The notes below the pieces were generated by a model that saw only the letters and a list, made by a program, of their open reading frames with translations, had not been told where the DNA came from and made no database searches. Below are positions 4,098-19,310 of a stretch of DNA of 20,582 nucleotides, piece by piece. Source of the stretch: a virus; IMG/VR virus record IMGVR_UViG_3300045741_000039, positions 1 to 20,582 of that record. One strand, written 5' to 3'. The translations under genes were made by a program, and so were the position numbers. The number at the start of each line of letters is the position of its first letter. Position 1 is the first letter of the stretch.

Positions 4098-5480
4098 GTG
4101 GCCTATATCCGGGGCTTTCCTGGGGCAAAGGCGCCGGATAGCCCAACAAAGTTTGTCGTAAAGCAAGGCCCCTTCGCTCCTCCTGTAGGACCGAAGGGCG
4201 GATTCATTTCCGCTGCACCGCAAATAGCGAATTATGCGCTTGTTGCTGGACTCGGTTTCTTTAGTGCCTCCGCTGTCACGCCGCAGGGACAGGCAAACGC
4301 TTCCGAGTATCAATTCGGTACGCATGCAGCAGCGATACACAATGCCGAGGCGATAAAGTCAAAAGTTTGGAAGTCGGTACCGACTCCGCCTGTAGCAACG
4401 TCCCAAGTTCCCAGATTTGTCTCCTCTGCGCCGCAGAGCGTAGACCTGACGCAACAACCGGCGATATTCAAATCCGCGCCGACGCCAATAGTCGTCAGCA
4501 CGCCGCTGCCGTTCAGGCTGGTTCAGGCAGGGCCGGAGCAGGTAGATTTATCCATATCTGGATGGGTGGCGGAAAGTGCCCCGATGTTTCAGGGCGCTCC
4601 GCCCGCATCAATATGGGCATCGCCGCAGACCGATCCGACGCAGATTGCAGCGCAGATATGGAAGCCAGCCGCTACCCCTCCTGCCGTCTCTGGATTCCTG
4701 GGGACGTATGTCAGCGTACCGGCGCAGATAGAGGAACGTCCGACAAGGCAGGTTTGGCCGTCTCAGATTTCGGGACAGACTCCTCCGGTCATCAAGTCGA
4801 TATGGGCCGCGCCGCAAATAGTCGACCTGACGTTACAGGCGGTCATACTTGGACCGGCTATTACGCCTCCGGTCGTGTCGTATGCCGTGCCGCAGTTGTA
4901 TGCGTCTCCGCAACTGATCGACCTGACGCAGCAGGGATGGATTCGCGGGACCGCTCCGATGGGGCAGGGGCCGGTCCCGCCGTTGACGTTTGGCATACCG
5001 CAAACTGATCCGACGCAGATTGCGCCAAGCATATGGCAATCGGTACCGACGCCTCCGGCCATATTGGGCGTTACCGTACAGCCGAATACGCCGGTACCGC
5101 CACAGTTCGATACGAGCGTAAATTCGACAGTTCTATGGACGCCGAGTACGTTCAGTCCGAGTGCTCCACCTGCGCCGCCTAGCGTAACGGTTTCTTCTGG
5201 CGGGCCAACATGGTTCTACAAGCCATATCCGAAGAAGAAAAAACGCAAGATTGTCGAGCTTGAGAATGTCGTCATCATTCCAAGCGAATCTCCGGAACTG
5301 GACGAGAAGCGGATTTACCGTTACTTCGGAGAACTTGCTCCAGAACTGAAAAACATCCGCATCCAAATGATCGAGATGCGCGAGGCATTGGCCTATGCCA
5401 AACAGGAAAATACCCGCATCGAGAGGCAGAAAAAACTCGACCGGGACGACGATGAATTTCTGATTCTTCTTTCTCTATGA
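4098..5480 (+). CDS. Proline-rich tandem-repeat protein with basic patch and helical C-terminus
   Basis: A 460-residue protein with a GTG start three bases after the previous stop. Residues 40-340 are built from degenerate units of about 30-35 residues, each with an (A/S)-P-Q-x-x-D-L-T-Q-Q or P-Q-T-D-P-T-Q-I-A core and a W-x-S-x-P-T-P-P-V segment. The PQ-type cores fall near residues 41, 112, 146, 176, 209, 239, 271 and 301. After a Pro/Ser linker (341-370) comes a basic cluster P378-KKKKRK-I-V, then a helical region (about 413-447) with coiled-coil character (IQMIEMREALAYAKQENTRIE). The repeats look extended and non-globular, like a fibrous stalk or spacer. The helical end may oligomerise. 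It lies just upstream of scaffold and capsid genes, so a head fibre or other virion filament is a reasonable guess. Family not recognised. Confidence 0.65.
   Translation: MAYIRGFPGAKAPDSPTKFVVKQGPFAPPVGPKGGFISAAPQIANYALVAGLGFFSASAVTPQGQANASEYQFGTHAAAIHNAEAIKSKVWKSVPTPPVATSQVPRFVSSAPQSVDLTQQPAIFKSAPTPIVVSTPLPFRLVQAGPEQVDLSISGWVAESAPMFQGAPPASIWASPQTDPTQIAAQIWKPAATPPAVSGFLGTYVSVPAQIEERPTRQVWPSQISGQTPPVIKSIWAAPQIVDLTLQAVILGPAITPPVVSYAVPQLYASPQLIDLTQQGWIRGTAPMGQGPVPPLTFGIPQTDPTQIAPSIWQSVPTPPAILGVTVQPNTPVPPQFDTSVNSTVLWTPSTFSPSAPPAPPSVTVSSGGPTWFYKPYPKKKKRKIVELENVVIIPSESPELDEKRIYRYFGELAPELKNIRIQMIEMREALAYAKQENTRIERQKKLDRDDDEFLILLSL
4218..5111 (+). repeat. Degenerate tandem repeats encoding ~30-35-residue Pro/Gln units
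   Basis: About eight in-frame units lie within the 460-residue protein gene. At DNA level the clearest copy is a perfect 17-base match, GATCCGACGCAGATTGC, at 4632-4648 and again at 5007-5023, exactly 375 bases (125 codons) apart. The segment encoding D-L-T-(Q/L)-Q recurs around 4443, 4824 and 4920 with synonymous changes. Spacing between unit cores alternates near 30 and 32-34 codons, suggesting a two-unit super-repeat of about 63 residues that was duplicated and then diverged. Confidence 0.7.
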
Positions 5481-10452: not shown

Positions 10453-10525
10453 TGGACATCTCGTCGGGCAAGTTGTTAATGGGCAATTCCATCCCTCTCA
10501 GCAGAATCAACAGCCAGCGCAATGA
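10304..10525 (+). CDS. Small beta-repeat hypothetical protein (73 aa)
   Basis: A 73-residue protein starting inside the gene before it in a different frame. The frame is open further upstream, to an ATG at 10217, but that region only repeats the neighbour's codons in another frame, so 10304 with its AAAGGAG is preferred. The sequence has short strand-turn units built on N-G and D-G turns: TVQVGQQSVEVKNGKASVQG, then FKVSKNGMVTSDGHLVGQV, then VNGQFHP, ending in a Gln-rich tail. This looks like a tiny beta-solenoid or repeated hairpin. It ends in an ATGA overlap with the hydroxylase-like gene. Function unknown. A minor virion protein is plausible from position. Confidence 0.65.
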   Translation: MPGLMGIERMQTGYNGTVQVGQQSVEVKNGKASVQGRTFKVSKNGMVTSDGHLVGQVVNGQFHPSQQNQQPAQ

Positions 10526-11055
10526 AAAATTTCCTGAGATTGGCTACGGGATGCGATGTTACGCCGCTGCTGGTTGCCATACATACAAAAGATTTGTGGA
10601 ACAAGGTAGACATCAGGACAAATCATCAGGAGACGGCTCATTCAGAAGTTGACGATATTCTTCTGAGATTTAATTCAATGGAGAGCATAGAGTCAATTCC
10701 AGACGAACATGAAAGTGTGAACTTCCCGGCATTTTCAGAACTGCCACAGGCAAGACCACTTGTTTTCGGTCTGATGGCTAGAGTCGAAGGCGAGAGATTG
10801 GGGCGATGTATTATCGCAAAACTGAAACCAGGATCAAAGGTATATCCACACGTGGACGGAGGGTCTCACGCATCGTATTACAAACGTTTTCATATCATCC
10901 TTCAAAGTTCGCCAGGCGTCGTATTCAGATCGGGTGACGAAGTTGTTTACATGGCTCCTGGGGATGTGTGGTGGTTTGACAACTCAAAGGAGCATGAGGT
11001 CATCAACAACAGTGCAGATGATCGGATACACCTAATAGTGGACATCAGGAAATGA
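10522..11055 (+). CDS. Aspartyl/asparaginyl beta-hydroxylase-like Fe(II)/2-oxoglutarate dioxygenase
   Basis: A 177-residue protein with start and stop in ATGA overlaps. The C-terminal 75 residues form the cupin core of the Asp/Asn beta-hydroxylase family. H110-V-D112 and H158 give the HxD...H iron triad. The segment YKRFHIILQSSPGVVF follows, then GDVWWFDNSKEHEV and R168-IHLIVDIR, where the arginine is the expected 2-oxoglutarate contact. Known members hydroxylate Asp/Asn side chains of proteins or free amino acids, using Fe(II), oxygen and 2-oxoglutarate. The N-terminal part (AHSEVDDILLRFN, then ELPQARPLVFGLMARV) belongs to the soluble form of the family and has no membrane anchor. All key residues are present, so an active enzyme is plausible. 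The substrate is unknown. A modified phage structural protein or host component is possible. The acetyltransferase follows directly. Confidence 0.82.
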   Translation: MKNFLRLATGCDVTPLLVAIHTKDLWNKVDIRTNHQETAHSEVDDILLRFNSMESIESIPDEHESVNFPAFSELPQARPLVFGLMARVEGERLGRCIIAKLKPGSKVYPHVDGGSHASYYKRFHIILQSSPGVVFRSGDEVVYMAPGDVWWFDNSKEHEVINNSADDRIHLIVDIRK

Positions 11056-11501
11056 TTACCTATCAAGTGGAAAAATGGAATGATGTTGTAGACGAAATGA
11101 AGCCGCTGTGGCCTCTCCACTGGGAAGAAGTAGCCGTGGACAAGGATGAAATAAAACTTAATCCAGATTATGCCTCATACGAGAATTACGACAGAAATGG
11201 CGCTTTGCATATCGTTGTGATGAGGGAATCCGGAAGAGTGTGCGGTTATCATGTAAGCATCGTCCGTCCTCACCTACATTACATGGAAAGCTTGTCTGCA
11301 TTCGTTGATGTGTACTACATCGAGAAACAATATAGAGGACAGAAGGCAGGGCTAAAGCTATTCCAAGAGGCTGAACGAACTCTCAAGGCAAGGGGAGTGC
11401 AGAAGATATTTTCTGGCACAAAAAAGCATCTTGATTTCAGCAAGTTGTTCGAAGGTCTTGGATATACGGCAACCGAAACACAATTCACGAAACTCATATG
11501 A
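11052..11501 (+). CDS. GNAT-family acetyltransferase
   Basis: A 149-residue protein in ATGA overlaps at both ends, the size of a single GNAT domain. The order of elements fits: an N-terminal strand and helices (VVDEMKPLWPLHWEEV), central strands (ALHIVVMRESGRVCGYHVSIV), then strand beta4 (LSAFVDVYYIEKQ) leading into motif A R95-G-Q-K-A-G100-LKLFQEAE. That motif binds the acetyl-CoA pyrophosphate. The last part (IFSGTKKHLDFSKLFEGLGYTATETQFTKLI) has the usual F-x-x-L-G-(F/Y) ending. Members acetylate amines of proteins, antibiotics or small molecules. The substrate is not deducible. Close coupling to the hydroxylase-like gene suggests that both act on one target or in one pathway. Confidence 0.82.
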   Translation: MITYQVEKWNDVVDEMKPLWPLHWEEVAVDKDEIKLNPDYASYENYDRNGALHIVVMRESGRVCGYHVSIVRPHLHYMESLSAFVDVYYIEKQYRGQKAGLKLFQEAERTLKARGVQKIFSGTKKHLDFSKLFEGLGYTATETQFTKLI

Positions 11502-12421
11502 AAATATTTCGATTAATTTCATGGTTTCTACCGGGCGGATTCTTCTGTCCCGGAGTAGGTGCTGCGGTGATAGGCGCCGGAGTTCTTGGTGCTGGCGGAG
11601 CTATTTATAGCGCAGACCAAGCAAGGAAGGCCTCGAATACCGCGACTGATGCCGCCAAACAGGCCAACGAGCTTGCTCTGATGCCATTGAGCAGCGGCGC
11701 ATCCAGCATCAATCGTAGGGCCGGAACGGTATCTCTTGACCCATCCATACGAGCACTTAGAGATTCTACGCTTGCCAATATTCCCGGTTATCGCAGCAAC
11801 CTGAACACGGCCTATGGCGACTTCTCCGGGCGGTTGGGTAGCATCTATGGTGGCCTGCAAGGCAATCAGAGTCCATTCATCCAAGCGCGTGTCAATCCGC
11901 TACTGCAACAGCAGGCACAGCAAACAGGACAGTTGCAAACCAGCCTTGGAATGCGCGGGCTTTCCGGTTCCAGCTTCGGAGATCAGGCTCTCACCAACCT
12001 GAACACGGACTACGGACGAGCAATCGGTGATCAAGCCGCGCTCGCAACACAGGACACGCTTAACGCACAGACCGGCGTGGCAGGGCAGATGTTCAATGCG
12101 GCAGGGGCGAACAATCAGCAGAACATGGCGCTCGATACCTCAATTCAGGGAACGGCAGGGCAGGACTTGGCGCAGGAATTATCTGCCCTTGGACTCGCTC
12201 CTGCTGACATCGGAGCGATTCTTAATTCTGGAGTGCTGGCCGGGAATGCTGGACAGAATTATGCAAGCAATATCGGGCAGAGCATTGGGTCAATGGGTAA
12301 CTTGTTTACCGGATTGTCTAAGTATCAATATCCAGGACTCAGAAGCCCTTCCACAAGTCCTCAATATGGAAGTGGGATGGGTGGTTCAGCGTATGGCGGT
12401 ACTGATTACTTTGCACCATGA
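11498..12421 (+). CDS. Internal virion/DNA-ejection protein (small)
   Basis: A 307-residue protein starting in an ATGA overlap. Residues 19-38 (GVGAAVIGAGVLGAGGAIYS) form a Gly/Ala-rich hydrophobic segment, followed by a helical Gln/Ala/Asn-rich body (ARKASNTATDAAKQANELAL, LLQQQAQQTGQLQTSLGMRG, ALATQDTLNAQTG). It ends in a Gly/Ser/Tyr-rich tail. This architecture is typical of the smallest ejection protein of short-tailed phages (the role of T7 gp14 or P22 gp7), which enters the host envelope to help build the DNA channel. Two larger candidates of the same class follow directly, which supports the assignment. The hydrophobic segment may instead act as an N-terminal membrane anchor. There is no classical signal peptide. 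Confidence 0.65.
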   Translation: MKIFRLISWFLPGGFFCPGVGAAVIGAGVLGAGGAIYSADQARKASNTATDAAKQANELALMPLSSGASSINRRAGTVSLDPSIRALRDSTLANIPGYRSNLNTAYGDFSGRLGSIYGGLQGNQSPFIQARVNPLLQQQAQQTGQLQTSLGMRGLSGSSFGDQALTNLNTDYGRAIGDQAALATQDTLNAQTGVAGQMFNAAGANNQQNMALDTSIQGTAGQDLAQELSALGLAPADIGAILNSGVLAGNAGQNYASNIGQSIGSMGNLFTGLSKYQYPGLRSPSTSPQYGSGMGGSAYGGTDYFAP

Positions 12422-12432
12422 TGGAATAAAAA

Positions 12433-13767
12433 ATGGATGACTCACTGAACGTATTAGGCGCAATCGGCATGGGTCTCTCCTCTGCCGGAGGGGCGCTCAA
12501 TCAGAATGTCTACAACCATAACGTCAACATGGCTTCGCAGCAGCAGGCGCAGGATGCGAAGAAGAAGGAGTTCCTTGCTACGTTGCTGACGGATCATTAT
12601 CAGAATGGAACGCTTGCTCCGGAGGCTTATCAGCAGGCCATGCAGAAGTTGGGATATAACATCCCGCCATTGGCACAACAATTTGATACGACTGGATCAG
12701 AGGGGGCAATAAAGCAAAAACTTGACCAAGGAGGTTATCTTAGCGGTGGAGATGTTGCTGACAACAATGGAGGATTAACTGGGCAAAGCGCACTTCGATC
12801 TCCGTCTCCATTAGAGGGGGCTGCTATGAACATTGCTGGCGTGCCTTCTCCTCTGAATCAAGATCCGGCAATGAAAGTTCCTCCAGTAGGCGTGTCTCCA
12901 TCGAAACCGGACTTTTATTCTATATCTGAAATCAATAGCGCGGTTACTGACTTCGAGAAATCTCTTCCGGACAATATGCCGCGTGCGGAAAAATACAAAA
13001 GGCTAGATGCATTCAAGAAGGATTTGCGTGATTTGCGCAAGAGCCAGTTAGAAGAATCGACAAACATGATGAAGTACCGCAAGGAAAAGCGGGACTCGAA
13101 TAAGCCAATAACTCAGCAAATCCCAATGGGAGAAGAGACCGCCGAGATTCAGTTTGATCCAGAGAAAAAACTAGAAGGGGAAAGACTTCCCGGAAATCCA
13201 GATTTTGCGATTATCTCTAAAGGTTCTCGTCAGCCTATCGCTAAAATTGTCATGCCTCCTGATCATTTCGCGCAATTAAAGGCGGCGGACACGATCAATG
13301 CTCAACTTGAGCGTCAGGTCGATCCATACAGGCAGGATATGTATGCGATCAGAAAAATGAGGGATTTGCTTGCAAGGGACGATGGAGCAGCTACCAAACA
13401 GGTCATGGATGAACTCCCCGGTCTGTTCGCAAGAAACAGAACGACGAACATGCTGTACTCTAAAAATTCTTCGTTTGGCAATATTGCCAATCGCATTGCC
13501 AATGCCGTATCTCAGTTTTCCACTGGAACATTCAATGAAGATTCTCGTCGTCAGTTGAGAGAAATGCTAGACGAGATGCAGAAGAATGTCATCAGACCAG
13601 CCATGGTGAAACACGAGAAGGCATTCAAGGAGCGGGCAGAATATGGAGACGTCGATCCCAAGCTAATCAGCATTCCGGATATGCCATCAGAGGACGAATC
13701 AAGTACCGTCGATCCGAAGGTTCAGAAGCAAATTGACGACTTCATCAACAGCCGCAGAAAGAAGTAA
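12433..13767 (+). CDS. Internal virion protein (medium), helical
   Basis: A 444-residue protein. It starts with a short Gly/Ala hydrophobic stretch (LGAIGMGLSSAGGALNQN), then Gln-rich helices (ASQQQAQDAKKKEFLATLL), a Pro/Gly-rich linker around residues 75-160, and long charged helices (KYKRLDAFKKDLRDLRKSQ, then RQDMYAIRKMRDLLARDDGA, then RRQLREMLDEMQKNVIRPAM). It ends in a basic helix (QIDDFINSRRKK). No enzyme motif is visible. Position between a smaller and a much larger ejection-type protein suggests the middle member of a three-protein set, like T7 gp14-15-16 or P22 gp7-20-16 in organisation, though I see no direct sequence match. The stop is followed at once by the next ATG. Its own ribosome binding site is poor and a 2-3-codon mini-frame sits just upstream. 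Confidence 0.6.
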   Translation: MDDSLNVLGAIGMGLSSAGGALNQNVYNHNVNMASQQQAQDAKKKEFLATLLTDHYQNGTLAPEAYQQAMQKLGYNIPPLAQQFDTTGSEGAIKQKLDQGGYLSGGDVADNNGGLTGQSALRSPSPLEGAAMNIAGVPSPLNQDPAMKVPPVGVSPSKPDFYSISEINSAVTDFEKSLPDNMPRAEKYKRLDAFKKDLRDLRKSQLEESTNMMKYRKEKRDSNKPITQQIPMGEETAEIQFDPEKKLEGERLPGNPDFAIISKGSRQPIAKIVMPPDHFAQLKAADTINAQLERQVDPYRQDMYAIRKMRDLLARDDGAATKQVMDELPGLFARNRTTNMLYSKNSSFGNIANRIANAVSQFSTGTFNEDSRRQLREMLDEMQKNVIRPAMVKHEKAFKERAEYGDVDPKLISIPDMPSEDESSTVDPKVQKQIDDFINSRRKK

Positions 13768-16566
13768 ATGGCCGACTTGAGCGTGACTGATCTGCTGGAC
13801 GATCAAGATTTCAGGCAGCAGGCTCCCGAGGTTCAGGATGGAATCTTTCGTCAATATGCGGCAGAGGACAAGGAATTCCAGAAGCAGCCAAAGGAAGTTC
13901 AAGCTGGAGTTCGATCAAGAATACTTGGAGTATCTTCCGGCAAGGCCGGATTGAGCGCACCTGTCATGCCATATGCAATTAACCAAGGAAAGGCTGGATT
14001 GGCCGGGACAATAGGCGCTGTTGCAGGGTTTCCGATAGATATTGGCAGAGGAGCTGCTCAGAGCGTCTATCAGGCTGCTACCGATCCAACCGTCAGGGCA
14101 CCGTGGCAGATAAAACTGACGGACCCTCTTAAGTACACCAAGGCCATTACTGGAGCAGTAGCGAAGCCTCTAGGCGTTGAGTCAAAACCCATTCCATTAG
14201 ATGAATATGGAAGGCCGTCAAAGTCTGCTGAATATATTGGTAAGTTCGCAGAGTTCACTGGAGCGTCGTTGATACCAGGCGGCGGCGTAGTAGGCATGGC
14301 GGCAAGGCGTGGTCTTGGCCCGGCATTGGCGGCAGCGGGAACAGAAGTGGGAATTGCAGGATTCAGTGCTCTGGATACTGTTCATGGAAAGCAGCTAGGT
14401 GAGAGATACCTTGGCCCTTATGTTGGTGGCCGGGAAACTGGTGGACAGATCGGAGAACTGATCGGTGCGGCAACCGGTCCGGTCATGATGGCAAAGGGGG
14501 TCGAATATCTAGGGAGAGGGGCGGGTAAGGTAGCATCAATGACAGGGGCTACTCAGTTAATGCCAGACGCCCAAAGGTCAGCAGGAAAGGCGCTGGCAAT
14601 AGACGAGCTTCGCAATTCCATGTATCCGGATGTCAGAACAGCAGAACAGACAAAGGCAAACCTCGAAGAGTCGGCGCAACTGCAACAGCAAATACCTGGT
14701 TTCAATCCTACACTCGGGCAGGCAACCAATGCTCCCGGTGTCATCGAACTGGAAAAAAAGGTCGGATCAAGAAACGCGGAAGCATTTGCTGAAGCTGAAG
14801 CAAGAAAGGGCGCTAATGAGGTGGCTCTCGAAGCATTCCGCACAAAGGCGTTTCCGTCAGGAGAAGGTTCTCCGGTACAAGCAGCAGCATTGAGATACAG
14901 GGGAATTTCTGCTGGCTTGCTGACATCTCAGAACAAGATAGAAGATCAGATCAGGGCGCTTAACGGCGCAATCGACAGGAGCTTCACTCCGGAGATGGGT
15001 AAGCGTCTTGACGATCTTTACATGGATTTGCGTAAGAACGTGAAGACGCAGGCAGAACAAAAGTATGCCAGCGTATACAAGATTGCTGATGATAACGGTG
15101 TCAGGATTGAAATGTCCGACATTGGTAATTTCATCAACAAACTCAAGACATCTGACCCGGCGGCATTTAACAGAGACGTAATCCCAGGGTCTTTTCAGGA
15201 GGTCATTGATCGCTATTCTACAAAATCCACTCCAGGAAGAAGTCTTGTAACTAGCACCGGAAAGAAAATACGTGTTGAGCAAGGACAGGAAATTCCTCCC
15301 GGACAAGCATCATTTCAGGAGCTTCATTCTCTCTACAAGCGAACTTTTCGTGACTATGGAAGAGCGAGGGACGACCAGACAAGAAACTACATAAAGCAGC
15401 TTCAGGATGCGCTGAAGTCAAAACTGGACAACTTCGAGAGGTCTGGACCAGTTGGCGAAGTCATGTCCAATCTTACGGAGGAATTCAAAGCAGCAAATGA
15501 GTTCTACCGTAAAAATTATGCCTCTGTTTTCAAATCTGGTCTTGGAGACGACATAGCCAGAAAGTCTGTTTTTTCCGGCACTACCCCAGACGAGAGGCTG
15601 GTAAGGGACTTGATATTCAAGCCTGACAATGAAGTCAGGATGGGGGAGTTCTTTCAGATATACGGAGACAATCCTGAAGCAAGAAAGTTACTTAACAATG
15701 GCGTGATGGATGTTTTTGCCAGAGAAATTAAGGCGTCAGGTGGTGAAATAACGCCTGCTGCAGTCAAGAGATTCCAGCAGAGATACAGCAGGGCGCTTGA
15801 ATATGTTCCGGATATGCAGAAAACATTTTCGAACGTGCAAAATACTATTGAAGGATACGTTGCAAGACGGGCGGAAGTGCAACAGCAAAGAAAGATGCTG
15901 GATCGTACTGTGCTGTCCGACATAGCGGAAAAATCAGGAGCAAGACAAGACCCGCAGGCCATTCTGAATCTTGCCATCAAGGACAGGCAATACATGCTGG
16001 CCCTTCTGAACAAGGGAAAACTTGGAGAAGAAGAACGAAAATCTCTTTCGCGCTCCATTGCAGACAAGGTTAGCGAACAAAAAGACCCATATCAGTTTCT
16101 TTTGGACAATCAGGAAACGCTGAAGCCAGCAATGATAACGCTTGGCGGTTCAGAGCATTGGGCAAACCTGGAGCGTATGGCAAAGGCTCAGAAAATTATG
16201 AATCGCGTTCCTGATGTTGGAAATATCGGAGAAAAGACGCTTCAGGACATAGGAAAAAAACTTATCGGTACTCCAGTGAACAGCATATTCTCCCAATCGC
16301 GTGCGGCAGCACAAGGAAGACAAAGCAAACCGTATATGTTTCTGGACATGGGAGGCAAGTACATATTCAAGATCAAATCAGAAGAAGCAGACCGCGTTCT
16401 TCGTGAAGCGATCTACGATCCTGATCTACTGAGCGCGTTATCTAAAGTCGATGTTCCGGTAGGTGAAATATCAAAGCAATCCATCATAAACGTCAAGCAT
16501 CACCTGATGTCGCATGGCGTTCGAGTTCTATCCGCCACTGCTGCTGATCGGTATCTGAATCAGTGA
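13768..16566 (+). CDS. Large internal virion/DNA-ejection protein (932 aa)
   Basis: A 932-residue protein starting right after the previous stop. The first 50 residues hold two copies of a helical motif (DFRQQAPEVQDGIFRQYAAE and EFQKQPKEVQAGVRSRIL), a unit often repeated at the N-terminus of large podovirus internal proteins. Residues 70-250 contain several Gly/Ala-rich hydrophobic helices (LAGTIGAVAGFPIDIGRG, GGVVGMAARRGLGPALAAAG, IGELIGAATGPVMMAKG) that could cross or enter membranes. The remainder is charged and helical. No lytic transglycosylase or peptidase motif is evident, unlike T7 gp16. Expected to be ejected with the DNA and form part of the envelope-spanning conduit. Arginine codons are often AGA/AGG, unlike the neighbouring ATP-grasp gene. 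It overlaps the next gene by 4 bases (GTGA). Confidence 0.68.
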   Translation: MADLSVTDLLDDQDFRQQAPEVQDGIFRQYAAEDKEFQKQPKEVQAGVRSRILGVSSGKAGLSAPVMPYAINQGKAGLAGTIGAVAGFPIDIGRGAAQSVYQAATDPTVRAPWQIKLTDPLKYTKAITGAVAKPLGVESKPIPLDEYGRPSKSAEYIGKFAEFTGASLIPGGGVVGMAARRGLGPALAAAGTEVGIAGFSALDTVHGKQLGERYLGPYVGGRETGGQIGELIGAATGPVMMAKGVEYLGRGAGKVASMTGATQLMPDAQRSAGKALAIDELRNSMYPDVRTAEQTKANLEESAQLQQQIPGFNPTLGQATNAPGVIELEKKVGSRNAEAFAEAEARKGANEVALEAFRTKAFPSGEGSPVQAAALRYRGISAGLLTSQNKIEDQIRALNGAIDRSFTPEMGKRLDDLYMDLRKNVKTQAEQKYASVYKIADDNGVRIEMSDIGNFINKLKTSDPAAFNRDVIPGSFQEVIDRYSTKSTPGRSLVTSTGKKIRVEQGQEIPPGQASFQELHSLYKRTFRDYGRARDDQTRNYIKQLQDALKSKLDNFERSGPVGEVMSNLTEEFKAANEFYRKNYASVFKSGLGDDIARKSVFSGTTPDERLVRDLIFKPDNEVRMGEFFQIYGDNPEARKLLNNGVMDVFAREIKASGGEITPAAVKRFQQRYSRALEYVPDMQKTFSNVQNTIEGYVARRAEVQQQRKMLDRTVLSDIAEKSGARQDPQAILNLAIKDRQYMLALLNKGKLGEEERKSLSRSIADKVSEQKDPYQFLLDNQETLKPAMITLGGSEHWANLERMAKAQKIMNRVPDVGNIGEKTLQDIGKKLIGTPVNSIFSQSRAAAQGRQSKPYMFLDMGGKYIFKIKSEEADRVLREAIYDPDLLSALSKVDVPVGEISKQSIINVKHHLMSHGVRVLSATAADRYLNQ

Positions 16567-17882
16567 ATCTGCTTATCATTGACCCTGACGCTAACGGCCT
16601 AGACCTTGCCCTGCGCACGCTGGCCTACGGTCACGATGTCAAATGGTTCATGTCGAACCACAAGGATGGGACAGTCAGAAAAACCGGCATTGGCCTGGTG
16701 GAGCGCGTCTCCGACTGGGAGAAATGGATGCAATGGGCGGACTGCGTTTTCCTGACCGGCAACGACAAGTACATCGATCGACTTGAGGATTTCCGAAAGT
16801 TAGGCTATCCGATCTTCGGTCCAGGCAAATCCTCCGCCGCATTGGAAGTGAATAGACAGTTGGGCATGAAGGTTCTGGAACGAGCCGGAATTGAATGCCC
16901 GCCTTACAAGTCCTTTGCATCGTTCGAGGATGCCGAGCGCCACGTATGGAAAACGGAAGGGCGCTTCGTGTTCAAGACTCTCGGAGACGAAGAGGACAAG
17001 AGCCTCAGTTACGTATCCAAGACGCCGGCGGACATGATTAACAAAATCCGCGAGTGGAAGAAGAAGGGCAGCAAGCTCAAGGGCCCGTGCATGTTGCAGG
17101 AGTTTGTCTCTGGAATAGAGATGGGTATTTCCTGCTGGTTCTCGCCGAAGATGGGATTCGGAAAGTGGAAGAACATCAACTTCGAGCACAAGAAACTGAT
17201 GTCAGGAAACTTTGGCCCAAATACCGGAGAACAAGGCACGGTCATGCAGTACACGAAGAAGGACAAGCTGTTCGATGAAGTCCTGAATCCGTTGGAATCA
17301 GTGCTTGCGCAAATGGGTCATGTCGGCGACATCGACGTTGGCTGCATCATCGACAAGCAGGGCAAACCGTGGCCTCTGGAGTTCACCGCCCGTGCTGGAT
17401 GGCCTGCGTTCTACATCATGCAGCGTGAGCACATCGGCGATCCGCTGCTGTGGATGATTGATCTGATGCAAGGTAAGGACACGCTGGAAGTGTCCGAACA
17501 AGTGGCCGTGGGGTATGTGCTGGCGCAACCGGAGTACCCATACACGACAGACATGAACCACCGCGCCATCGGCAACCCGATCTATGGCATCACGGACGAG
17601 AACTGGGATCACCTTCACCCTGCGGACATGATGAAGGGACGCGCCATCGACATGAAGAACGACAAGCCGGTGGAGCAGGATATGTTCCTGACCTCCGGGG
17701 AATACGTGATGGTCATCTCTGGACTAGGTGACACGGTACGCAAGGCGATCAAAGACGCCAAGAAAGTAGTAGACGAAATCTGCGTTTCGGATGAATTGCT
17801 GCGCGACGACATAGGTGAGGAACTGGAAGAACAGTTGCCCATCCTTCATGAACACGGTTACGCACTCTCAATGGAGTATTAA
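16563..17882 (+). CDS. PurD-like ATP-grasp ligase (phosphoribosylamine-glycine ligase family)
   Basis: A 439-residue protein starting GTG in a GTGA overlap. Length and order match PurD throughout. It has a Rossmann-like N-terminus (LLIIDPDANGLDLALRTLAYGHDV), then GPGKSSAALEVNRQLGMKVL (86-105) and ECPPYKSF. Nucleotide-binding strands follow at FVFKTLG (135-141) and MLQEFVSGIEMG (177-188), then HKKLMSGNFGPNTGEQGTVM (209-228, compare H-K-R-x-G-D-x-D-x-G-P-N-T-G-G-M-G in PurD). LEFTARAGWP (272-281) takes the place of EFNxRxGxPE. The C-terminal domain ends SGEYVMVISGLGDTVRKAI, then LLRDDIG. Two differences stand out: the N-terminal G-x-G-G-R-E-H motif is replaced by DPDANGLDLA, and the usual metal-ligand Asn after E273 is Thr275. 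ATP-dependent carboxylate-amine ligation is likely, but the substrate probably differs from glycine plus phosphoribosylamine. The setting, between ejection protein and fibre, is unusual for a purine gene. Confidence 0.8.
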   Translation: MNLLIIDPDANGLDLALRTLAYGHDVKWFMSNHKDGTVRKTGIGLVERVSDWEKWMQWADCVFLTGNDKYIDRLEDFRKLGYPIFGPGKSSAALEVNRQLGMKVLERAGIECPPYKSFASFEDAERHVWKTEGRFVFKTLGDEEDKSLSYVSKTPADMINKIREWKKKGSKLKGPCMLQEFVSGIEMGISCWFSPKMGFGKWKNINFEHKKLMSGNFGPNTGEQGTVMQYTKKDKLFDEVLNPLESVLAQMGHVGDIDVGCIIDKQGKPWPLEFTARAGWPAFYIMQREHIGDPLLWMIDLMQGKDTLEVSEQVAVGYVLAQPEYPYTTDMNHRAIGNPIYGITDENWDHLHPADMMKGRAIDMKNDKPVEQDMFLTSGEYVMVISGLGDTVRKAIKDAKKVVDEICVSDELLRDDIGEELEEQLPILHEHGYALSMEY

Positions 17883-19310
17883 GTGGGAACAAAATACAGC
17901 AACCAAACGACGAGTGGATACAATGCTAGTCCCCCTCCCGACGATGGTACGACAGTAGCAGCCAATCAACTTACTTGGGCGACGATCAAGGGAAAGCTCT
18001 CTGATCCCCTTAATAACTTCGACACGGCTATCAATGCGGCATTACTGAATGCTCTGGATACATCATGCTCTACAGTATCTGGAACATATACGACAATTGC
18101 TTCAGATAATGCCAGAACATTGCAATGTTCTGGAACGTTCACGTTGTCACTGGGAGATGCGTCTACGCTCGGTGCTGGATGGTGGTGCAATATCGTCAAT
18201 GCGGGATCTGGAACGATTACTCTTGGTAGGGCTACAGGTGGTAATACGCTGGCTGGAGTTGCCTCCAACATTACTCTTGGTCCGTTGCAAGCTACTACCG
18301 TAATCGTCAACCAGGCGGCGAACGGATTCAACCTGACGGACTGCAACAGCCTGATTGTGGATCAGACGGATATAACGAAACAGGCAAAGTTTGACGTAAG
18401 CGGCATGCCTACTGCTACTGTTGCCAATCTAAAGATCGCAGCCGCGCAGATTGTGGAGGGGCAACAAGGAGTGAATATCGCTTCCGCTGCAACAGTCAAT
18501 CTTGATACGGCTACTGGGAACTATATTCACGTTACCGGAACGACGACGACTACTGCAATTACTCTTACGCAAGGCAGGGAAAGAACTGTCGTTGCCGATG
18601 CTGCTTGGCCTGTCACGGCGGGCGCGTCCTTGATAATGACTGGAATCATTGCCTCTGGAAGTACGTACACTTTTAGTGCTGGAGACGTTATCAAGTTACG
18701 TGGCGAGGCGGCAGGGGTTGTGCGCGTGGTCGGAGTTGATCTTTCGAGTCCAGCGGTTCAGGGATCATCTCTTGTCTTGCTGTCTACCCAAGTAGCTTCA
18801 AATAGCGCCACTTTACAATTTACCACCAACATCACGTCTCTCTTCGATGAATACGTCTTTAAGTACATCGCCATTGTGCCCGCAACGAACAGTGCCGGAT
18901 TCCTGATGAACATGAGTATCAATGGTGGGTCGTCCTACGATTCTGGAGGTACTTCTTACTCATATGCCAACAACGTTGCTGGTGCAAACGCTACTAATTA
19001 CGGTACAAGTTCTACTGGTGCTGCGAATATTGTATTAAACGGCGTGACGAATGGTTTGAGCAATAGCTCATCCGGCGCCGGATATAACGGAGAATCTTCT
19101 CTTTACGTGCCATCTAGTACTACCAATATAAAACATGTTAAGACTACGGCTGGTTATAACGGCAATCTTGCTCTTGCCACAGTTGATGCTATGGCTGCTG
19201 GCATTTCAACCGGCCTCACCACTTCCGCGGTTAATGCAGTTAGTTTCCAGATGAGTTCTGGAAATATCACATCTGGACTCATCCGTATGTATGGGGTCAG
19301 GAAACAATGA
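17883..19310 (+). CDS. Tail fibre protein
   Basis: A 475-residue protein with a GTG start directly after the previous stop. The N-terminus has a recurrent phage fibre opening: TSGYNASPPPDDGTTVAANQ, then LTWATIKGKLSDPLN (residues 10-44). It probably attaches the fibre to the tail. The middle (about 55-290) is a Thr/Gly/Ala-rich beta-helical or triple-strand shaft with repeats such as GTFTLSLGDAST and GSGTITLGRATGG. The C-terminal domain (about 293-475) begins SSLVLLSTQVASNSATLQFT, contains FDEYVFKYIAIVPATNSAGF, and ends with RMYGVRKQ, a recognisable fibre-tip domain that would bind the host receptor. No catalytic triad or depolymerase motif is visible. The gene leads straight into the lysis cassette, the usual order in many short-tailed phages. 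Confidence 0.82.
   Translation: MGTKYSNQTTSGYNASPPPDDGTTVAANQLTWATIKGKLSDPLNNFDTAINAALLNALDTSCSTVSGTYTTIASDNARTLQCSGTFTLSLGDASTLGAGWWCNIVNAGSGTITLGRATGGNTLAGVASNITLGPLQATTVIVNQAANGFNLTDCNSLIVDQTDITKQAKFDVSGMPTATVANLKIAAAQIVEGQQGVNIASAATVNLDTATGNYIHVTGTTTTTAITLTQGRERTVVADAAWPVTAGASLIMTGIIASGSTYTFSAGDVIKLRGEAAGVVRVVGVDLSSPAVQGSSLVLLSTQVASNSATLQFTTNITSLFDEYVFKYIAIVPATNSAGFLMNMSINGGSSYDSGGTSYSYANNVAGANATNYGTSSTGAANIVLNGVTNGLSNSSSGAGYNGESSLYVPSSTTNIKHVKTTAGYNGNLALATVDAMAAGISTGLTTSAVNAVSFQMSSGNITSGLIRMYGVRKQ
19299..19302 (+). promoter_or_regulatory. Shine-Dalgarno deciding the start at 19312
   Basis: AGGA (within TCAGGAAAC) lies 9 bases before ATG 19312. An in-frame ATG at 19291 is also possible, but it sits inside the fibre gene's last codons and has no purine-rich site at the right distance. 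Confidence 0.55.

Follow-up and report, generated by a model that had tools for sequence, protein, structure and literature searches.

What does a PurD-like ligase do among the virion genes of a phage? The question is raised by a virus record in IMG/VR (IMGVR_UViG_3300045741_000039, positions 1 to 20,582), the whole 20,582-base stretch of which was analysed and is called the window here. The window contains a single copy of the gene:

16563..17882, + strand: PurD-like ATP-grasp ligase, 439 amino acids, GTG start (profile, structure and alignment evidence)

The open reading frame (ORF) is intact and lies exactly where an earlier inspection of the letters alone (the sequence-only reading) had put it. 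The GTG start is supported because a relative encoding an 85% identical ligase (L002) has an ATG at the equivalent place. The first four nucleotides (GTGA, 16563-16566) overlap the stop of the preceding gene, which encodes 932 amino acids, and the ligase stop abuts the next start, at 17883. A scan for promoters and terminators did not exceed shuffled sequence in the number of sites. The protein is likely a carboxylate-amine ligase of the ATP-grasp type, from a family that derives from PurD but is separate from glycinamide ribonucleotide (GAR) synthetase, and it would act on substrates other than those of PurD.

Resemblance to PurD over the full length, as first noticed by eye, was borne out. 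The PurD equivalog profile TIGR00877 matched with an E-value of 2.8e-21 and 75.8 bits, below its 288-bit cut-off. In the Pfam profile scan GARS_A barely reached its gathering score (27.1 vs 27; E 4.4e-6), GARS_C fell below it (29.3 vs 34.8; E 1.1e-6) and GARS_N gave no match. A PDB sequence search returned PurD (2xcl, E 2.4e-18). Sequence matches to PurD begin only from residue ~44-76, and the likeness of the N-terminal part is visible by structure only (2yw2, Z 36.3, residues 1-426). In the predicted structure (predicted local distance difference test, pLDDT, 94.4) the ATP-grasp fold is present, with PurD, PurK, PurT and biotin carboxylase structures all at Z > 22. The top solved matches were all PurD (Z 32-36), and the next family was PurK/PurT (24.5). 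No PHROGs family matched the ligase, and a structural search of BFVD with the model gave no close match (best TMq, the TM-score relative to the query, ~0.4).

In Aquifex PurD, ATP is bound by K103, K143, E185, E192 and K214, Mg by E100 and K214, and glycine by D212, R287 and E292 (PMC8880213). Alignment to this enzyme placed R98, K138, Q179, E186, K210 and E95 of the ligase at the ATP/Mg positions. E95, K138, E186, K210 and E273 are identical to PurD, and R98 stands for K and Q179 for E, both conservative changes. Among the glycine ligands, R277 (equivalent to R287) alone is retained, D212 being replaced by E208 and E292 by A282. Further changes are E223 for the glycine of NTGG and W280 for the Asp of GDPE, and the PurD motifs EFN and RxGDPE (PS00184) are unmatched, the ligase reading EFTARAGWPA. 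The alignment also confirmed two replacements that the sequence-only reading had described, that of GGREH and that of the metal-site Asn in EFNxR, which is Thr275. GGREHA is full or near-full in 24 true PurD proteins and replaced both in the phage proteins and in a branch of cellular paralogues, and R98, Q179, E208, E223 and T275 are common to the phage ligase and these paralogues. The ATP half of the site is thus retained, and the substrate half, with the glycine and phosphoribosylamine sites, is rebuilt alike in the phage and cellular branches. That the rebuilt half is common to both suggests, as far as aligned residues can, the same or similar chemistry. Both the acid and the amine that the ligase joins are probably other than those of PurD.

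Two trees, of 88 and 45 sequences, were rooted on PurD for the reading of clades. Both resolved canonical PurD, cellular paralogues and phage proteins as three groups. Support by the Shimodaira-Hasegawa-like approximate likelihood ratio test (SH-aLRT) in the 88-sequence tree was 100, 95 and 98, respectively; in the 45-sequence tree bootstrap/SH-aLRT values were 100/100, 99/96 and 98/92. The phage group is one clade, sister to the cellular branch, with the window protein nested inside it and outside both the PurD clade and the cellular paralogue clade in both trees. These results bear on whether the gene encodes an ordinary PurD that serves purine synthesis in infection. The end-to-end fold match, with PurD as the best solved relative, would suit such a role. 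However, the family score lies far under the cut-off, the substrate residues are lost, the clade is separate, and in cells the sister family is found either together with a true PurD or in genomes where neither PurD nor PurM was detected. An ordinary PurD is very improbable, and the suspicion voiced in the sequence-only reading is supported on this point.

The cellular branch is widespread. Searches of plasmids turned up PurD-like proteins carrying the same residue swaps in Halarchaeum, Roseomonas and Sphingomonas, and a genome scan gave 150 matching stretches. The best 80 of these, 53 to 79% identical to the haloarchaeal protein, came from haloarchaea, Patescibacteria, DPANN archaea, Omnitrophota, Acidobacteria, Rhodothermia, Parvularculaceae and others. 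In Halobacteria the paralogue was present in 45 of 116 genomes. The paralogues are mostly stand-alone genes, and no conserved operon was seen in their neighbourhoods. True PurD (above the cut-off) was found alongside the paralogue in 24 of 31 cellular genomes, and neither PurD nor PurM was found in G023, G024, G026 and G028, which are draft genomes. When 385 genomes of the Parvularcula class were searched for close copies, only the cellular paralogue was recovered, which points to no host for the phage. Two haloarchaeal 'extra' PurD-like proteins (rrnAC0307 and Hlac_1553) were set aside as non-GARS in a 2011 survey of archaeal purine genes (Biol Direct, PMC3261824); from their description and taxonomy, they would belong to this family. 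The altered specificity is common to cells and is no phage invention, because the cellular paralogues carry the same substituted residues. The idea that the repurposing took place in phages and in connection with the virion, as initially proposed, is therefore not supported: the same changes occur in a widespread cellular family, mostly beside true PurD.

The paralogue is interrupted in some haloarchaea. In one (L286, genome G424) it is broken just after FEHKKLFPGN by an apparent insertion sequence (IS) element with a transposase-like ORF, and in two others (L287, G456; L288, G457) a copy truncated at FEH directly precedes a second copy. It is curious that all three genomes have their breaks at nearly the same codons.

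On the phage side, a clear relative was found in one of 50,697 phage records (MW202796.1). Further matches in that collection (H2-H28) were excluded as members, as their 21 to 30% identity is in the range of true PurD; the purD annotation is present on several, and the majority are mined contigs with no annotation. In MW202796.1 the ligase gene (42140-43459; 20001-21320 of the extracted locus L001) has no annotation, and the record is titled Myoviridae although the late genes listed in it look podovirus-like. IMG/VR, whose contigs are often fragments, held at least 311 contigs encoding relatives, as found with profile-derived patterns. The best 80 of the 311 were retrieved and 82 viral copies compared. 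No description of the phage family was found in the literature, most subscription papers lying outside the search.

Three motifs make up the conserved core of the 82 viral copies: EHKK, TGExGT and ExTxRxGWP. The DPDANG stretch that the sequence-only reading had offered as a phage signature varies at its positions. As EHKK was one of the search patterns, conservation was retested on loci picked by their head-closure gene, using an alignment of six close head-closure sequences. This sample comprises relatives of head-closure proteins from ligase-bearing phages and so gives prevalence within the lineage, not among phages at large. The ligase was present in 25 of the 29 contigs so selected that had at least 7.5 kb downstream. 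The signature comprises 17 residues (E95/R98, K138, Q179, E186, E208-K211 as EHKK, E223-T226 as ExGT, E273-T275-R277 and W280-P281). All of them, or all but one, were kept in 24 of 26 copies (in one, Trp280 is Ile), these being the other copies, picked regardless of the motif, that cover all the key residues. Between the window and L002, non-synonymous divergence (dN) in the ligase was 0.109 and synonymous divergence (dS) 1.87 (dN/dS ~0.06). The gene is under strong purifying selection. Identity between the two was 85% for the ligase, 89% for the capsid protein, 58% for the putative tail fibre and 55% for the first ejection-type protein.

Several points weigh against an active carboxylate-amine ligase with new substrates. 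The activity and its substrates are predicted from sequence and model, the phage and cellular branches may differ in substrate, and the change of Asn to Thr275 at the metal position could weaken catalysis, although PurK and PurT are likewise not known to have Asn at this position. In addition, the two exceptions among the 26 phage copies (L254, 18126-19337, and L275, 17104-18270) are degenerate and without the catalytic residues. A non-catalytic role is possible because both frames stay open, at the usual position, despite this loss; for L254 the ratio of non-synonymous to synonymous polymorphism (pN/pS) was ~0.22-0.27. The protein might then be a pseudoenzyme that is kept as a structural or binding component of the virion. 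This is unlikely, given the retention of the signature in 24 of 26 copies, the selection on the gene and the intact copy in the window.

The neighbours of the ligase in the window are the following:

10522..11055, + strand: 2-oxoglutarate (2OG) oxygenase, aspartyl/asparaginyl beta-hydroxylase-like; same operon, present in 23/55 ligase loci
11052..11501, + strand: GNAT acetyltransferase; same operon, present in 16/55 ligase loci
11498..12421, + strand: putative internal virion protein, 307 amino acids; the same-place protein of relatives matches phrog_598 (DNA ejection)
12433..13767, + strand: putative internal virion (ejection) protein, 444 amino acids; related to L002
13768..16566, + strand: putative ejection protein, 932 amino acids, by position only; overlaps the ligase start by 4 nucleotides
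17883..19310, + strand: putative tail fibre, 475 amino acids; phrog_14820 (annotated unknown function), begins directly after the ligase stop

The 55 loci are those ligase-bearing phage loci with enough upstream sequence. The usual viral order is head closure (proteins at this place in relatives match phrog_578), in some phages the 2OG oxygenase and GNAT, two or three ejection-type genes, the ligase, and then genes of tail-fibre and lysozyme type. The ligase follows the last putative ejection gene in nearly all 82 copies, mostly overlapping it. Where the upstream gene is on the same strand, 69 of 78 ligases lie within ~30 nucleotides of it and 42 of 78 have the exact 4-nucleotide overlap, figures that are approximate since genes were simple longest-ORF calls. 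The coupling to a DNA-ejection protein claimed in the sequence-only reading is upheld as regards the overlap; the ejection label comes from gene order and relatives, the 932-residue protein having no recognisable homologue, including among the upstream proteins of other ligase loci. A gene does start directly downstream, as was also claimed, and its description as a tail fibre is putative.

The oxygenase and GNAT genes overlap by 4 nucleotides, between the head-closure and ejection-type genes. The pair stands at the same place in Pseudomonas phage PfAn1, Limnohabitans phage DC33 and the loci L009, L020 and L030, in which structural proteins are otherwise unrecognisable. Phage DC33 (PQ492659.1; L199) is classed as Inoviridae, yet has a 39-kb genome and this tailed-phage pair, and is probably misclassified. 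Elsewhere in the window, upstream of the capsid gene, 4098-5480 encodes a 460-residue protein consisting mostly of degenerate proline-rich repeats (PTPPV, PQxVDLTQQ).

The setting of the gene raises the question of its target. One possibility is a protein as acceptor, whether an ejection, tail or host protein, to which the ligase would attach an amino acid or a comparable acid; the hydroxylase-like gene and the acetyltransferase gene of the operon might take part. Translational coupling to ejection genes is consistent with this, and so are the oxygenase and the GNAT that some of the phages have in this operon. The cellular paralogue, too, repeatedly has GNAT genes nearby (seven matches among 55 close neighbours vs no GNAT family seen two or more times in 70 control genes, for which 25 families were listed and among which single GNATs may exist). 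However, the genes immediately upstream of the ligase fall into 23 unrelated sequence clusters while the enzyme is conserved, and this speaks against a tailored virion-protein target. Neither oxygenase nor GNAT occurs in 27 of the 55 loci, for which reason a dependence of the ligase on them was dropped. PfAn1 has both genes and no ligase, and the cellular relatives work without phage proteins. Protein modification is a serious rival, although the less probable one. A small host metabolite or envelope precursor is modestly favoured over a virion or host protein as target, because the relatives in cells do without phage proteins and the adjoining virion proteins vary freely whereas the enzyme does not.

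Some phage systems for base modification include ATP-grasp ligases, and the ligase might likewise modify a DNA base or nucleotide. Against this, no base-modification gene was found among the ten window genes scanned, the early region of the phage lying outside the contig; the gene sits among virion genes, and its cellular relatives are mostly single genes. Such a role is very improbable.

For a ligase acting on a small molecule, the following course may be envisaged. The gene, conserved in one P22-like short-tailed phage lineage, would be translated late with the ejection proteins. The enzyme would bind MgATP, phosphorylate a small acid, not glycine, on its carboxylate and hand the acyl group on to an amine that is not phosphoribosylamine. 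It may do so inside the cell late in infection or, with lower probability, as an ejected enzyme. A more speculative picture, held tentatively, is of a ligase with an undescribed reaction in bacteria, archaea and one phage lineage, which in the phages became fixed in the ejection operon, is perhaps delivered with the genome and alters a host metabolite or the envelope at the start of infection.

Genes of this kind readily receive the name purD and are then taken for purine auxiliary metabolic genes, which on present evidence is wrong for this family. That many environmental phages have such a core enzyme in their virion operon would point to late or ejected chemistry so far undescribed. A single substrate assay on the paralogue would name a reaction for many lineages, because the paralogue is common in haloarchaea and is found in genomes with no detected purine pathway gene.

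Among known systems, the phage peptide-bond modules of PA11, PhiRIO-1, PhiM6 and LUZ24-like phages encode amidoligase, COOH-NH2 ligase, GATase and ATP-grasp proteins, for which peptidoglycan modification has been proposed (PMC6256558, PMC3890496). They resemble the present case in that ligases, ATP-grasp enzymes among them, are encoded by a phage. However, they are multi-gene (in the early region in LUZ24-like UFV-P2) with an ATP-grasp gene of ~290 amino acids, whereas the window has a single full-length PurD-like gene in a late virion operon. Amidoligase, COOH-NH2 ligase, GATase and GGCT were all absent from the ten window genes scanned, which do not include the early region.

The P. fluorescens phage PfAn1 (PV364321) has the same gene order, with related 2OG oxygenase (46%) and GNAT (38%) genes before the ejection genes. 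In contrast to the window, it has a transglycosylase followed directly by a tail protein and no PurD-like gene. The ligase is thus dispensable in the wider phage group, since PfAn1 has the same oxygenase-GNAT-ejection order without it.

PurD itself (TIGR00877; 2yw2, 1gso) shares with the ligase the whole fold, E95, K138, K146, E186, K210, E273, R277 and the C-terminal RxDIG; the ligase is without GGREHA, two of the three glycine ligands, the Asn of EFN and GDPE. The haloarchaeal 'extra' proteins and other cellular paralogues (L085, L088-L167) are, like the phage ligase, without the GARS_N region and the Asp of GDPE. They differ in having Tyr for Trp280 and Thr for Ala282, in being mostly stand-alone and in forming a separate, well-supported branch.

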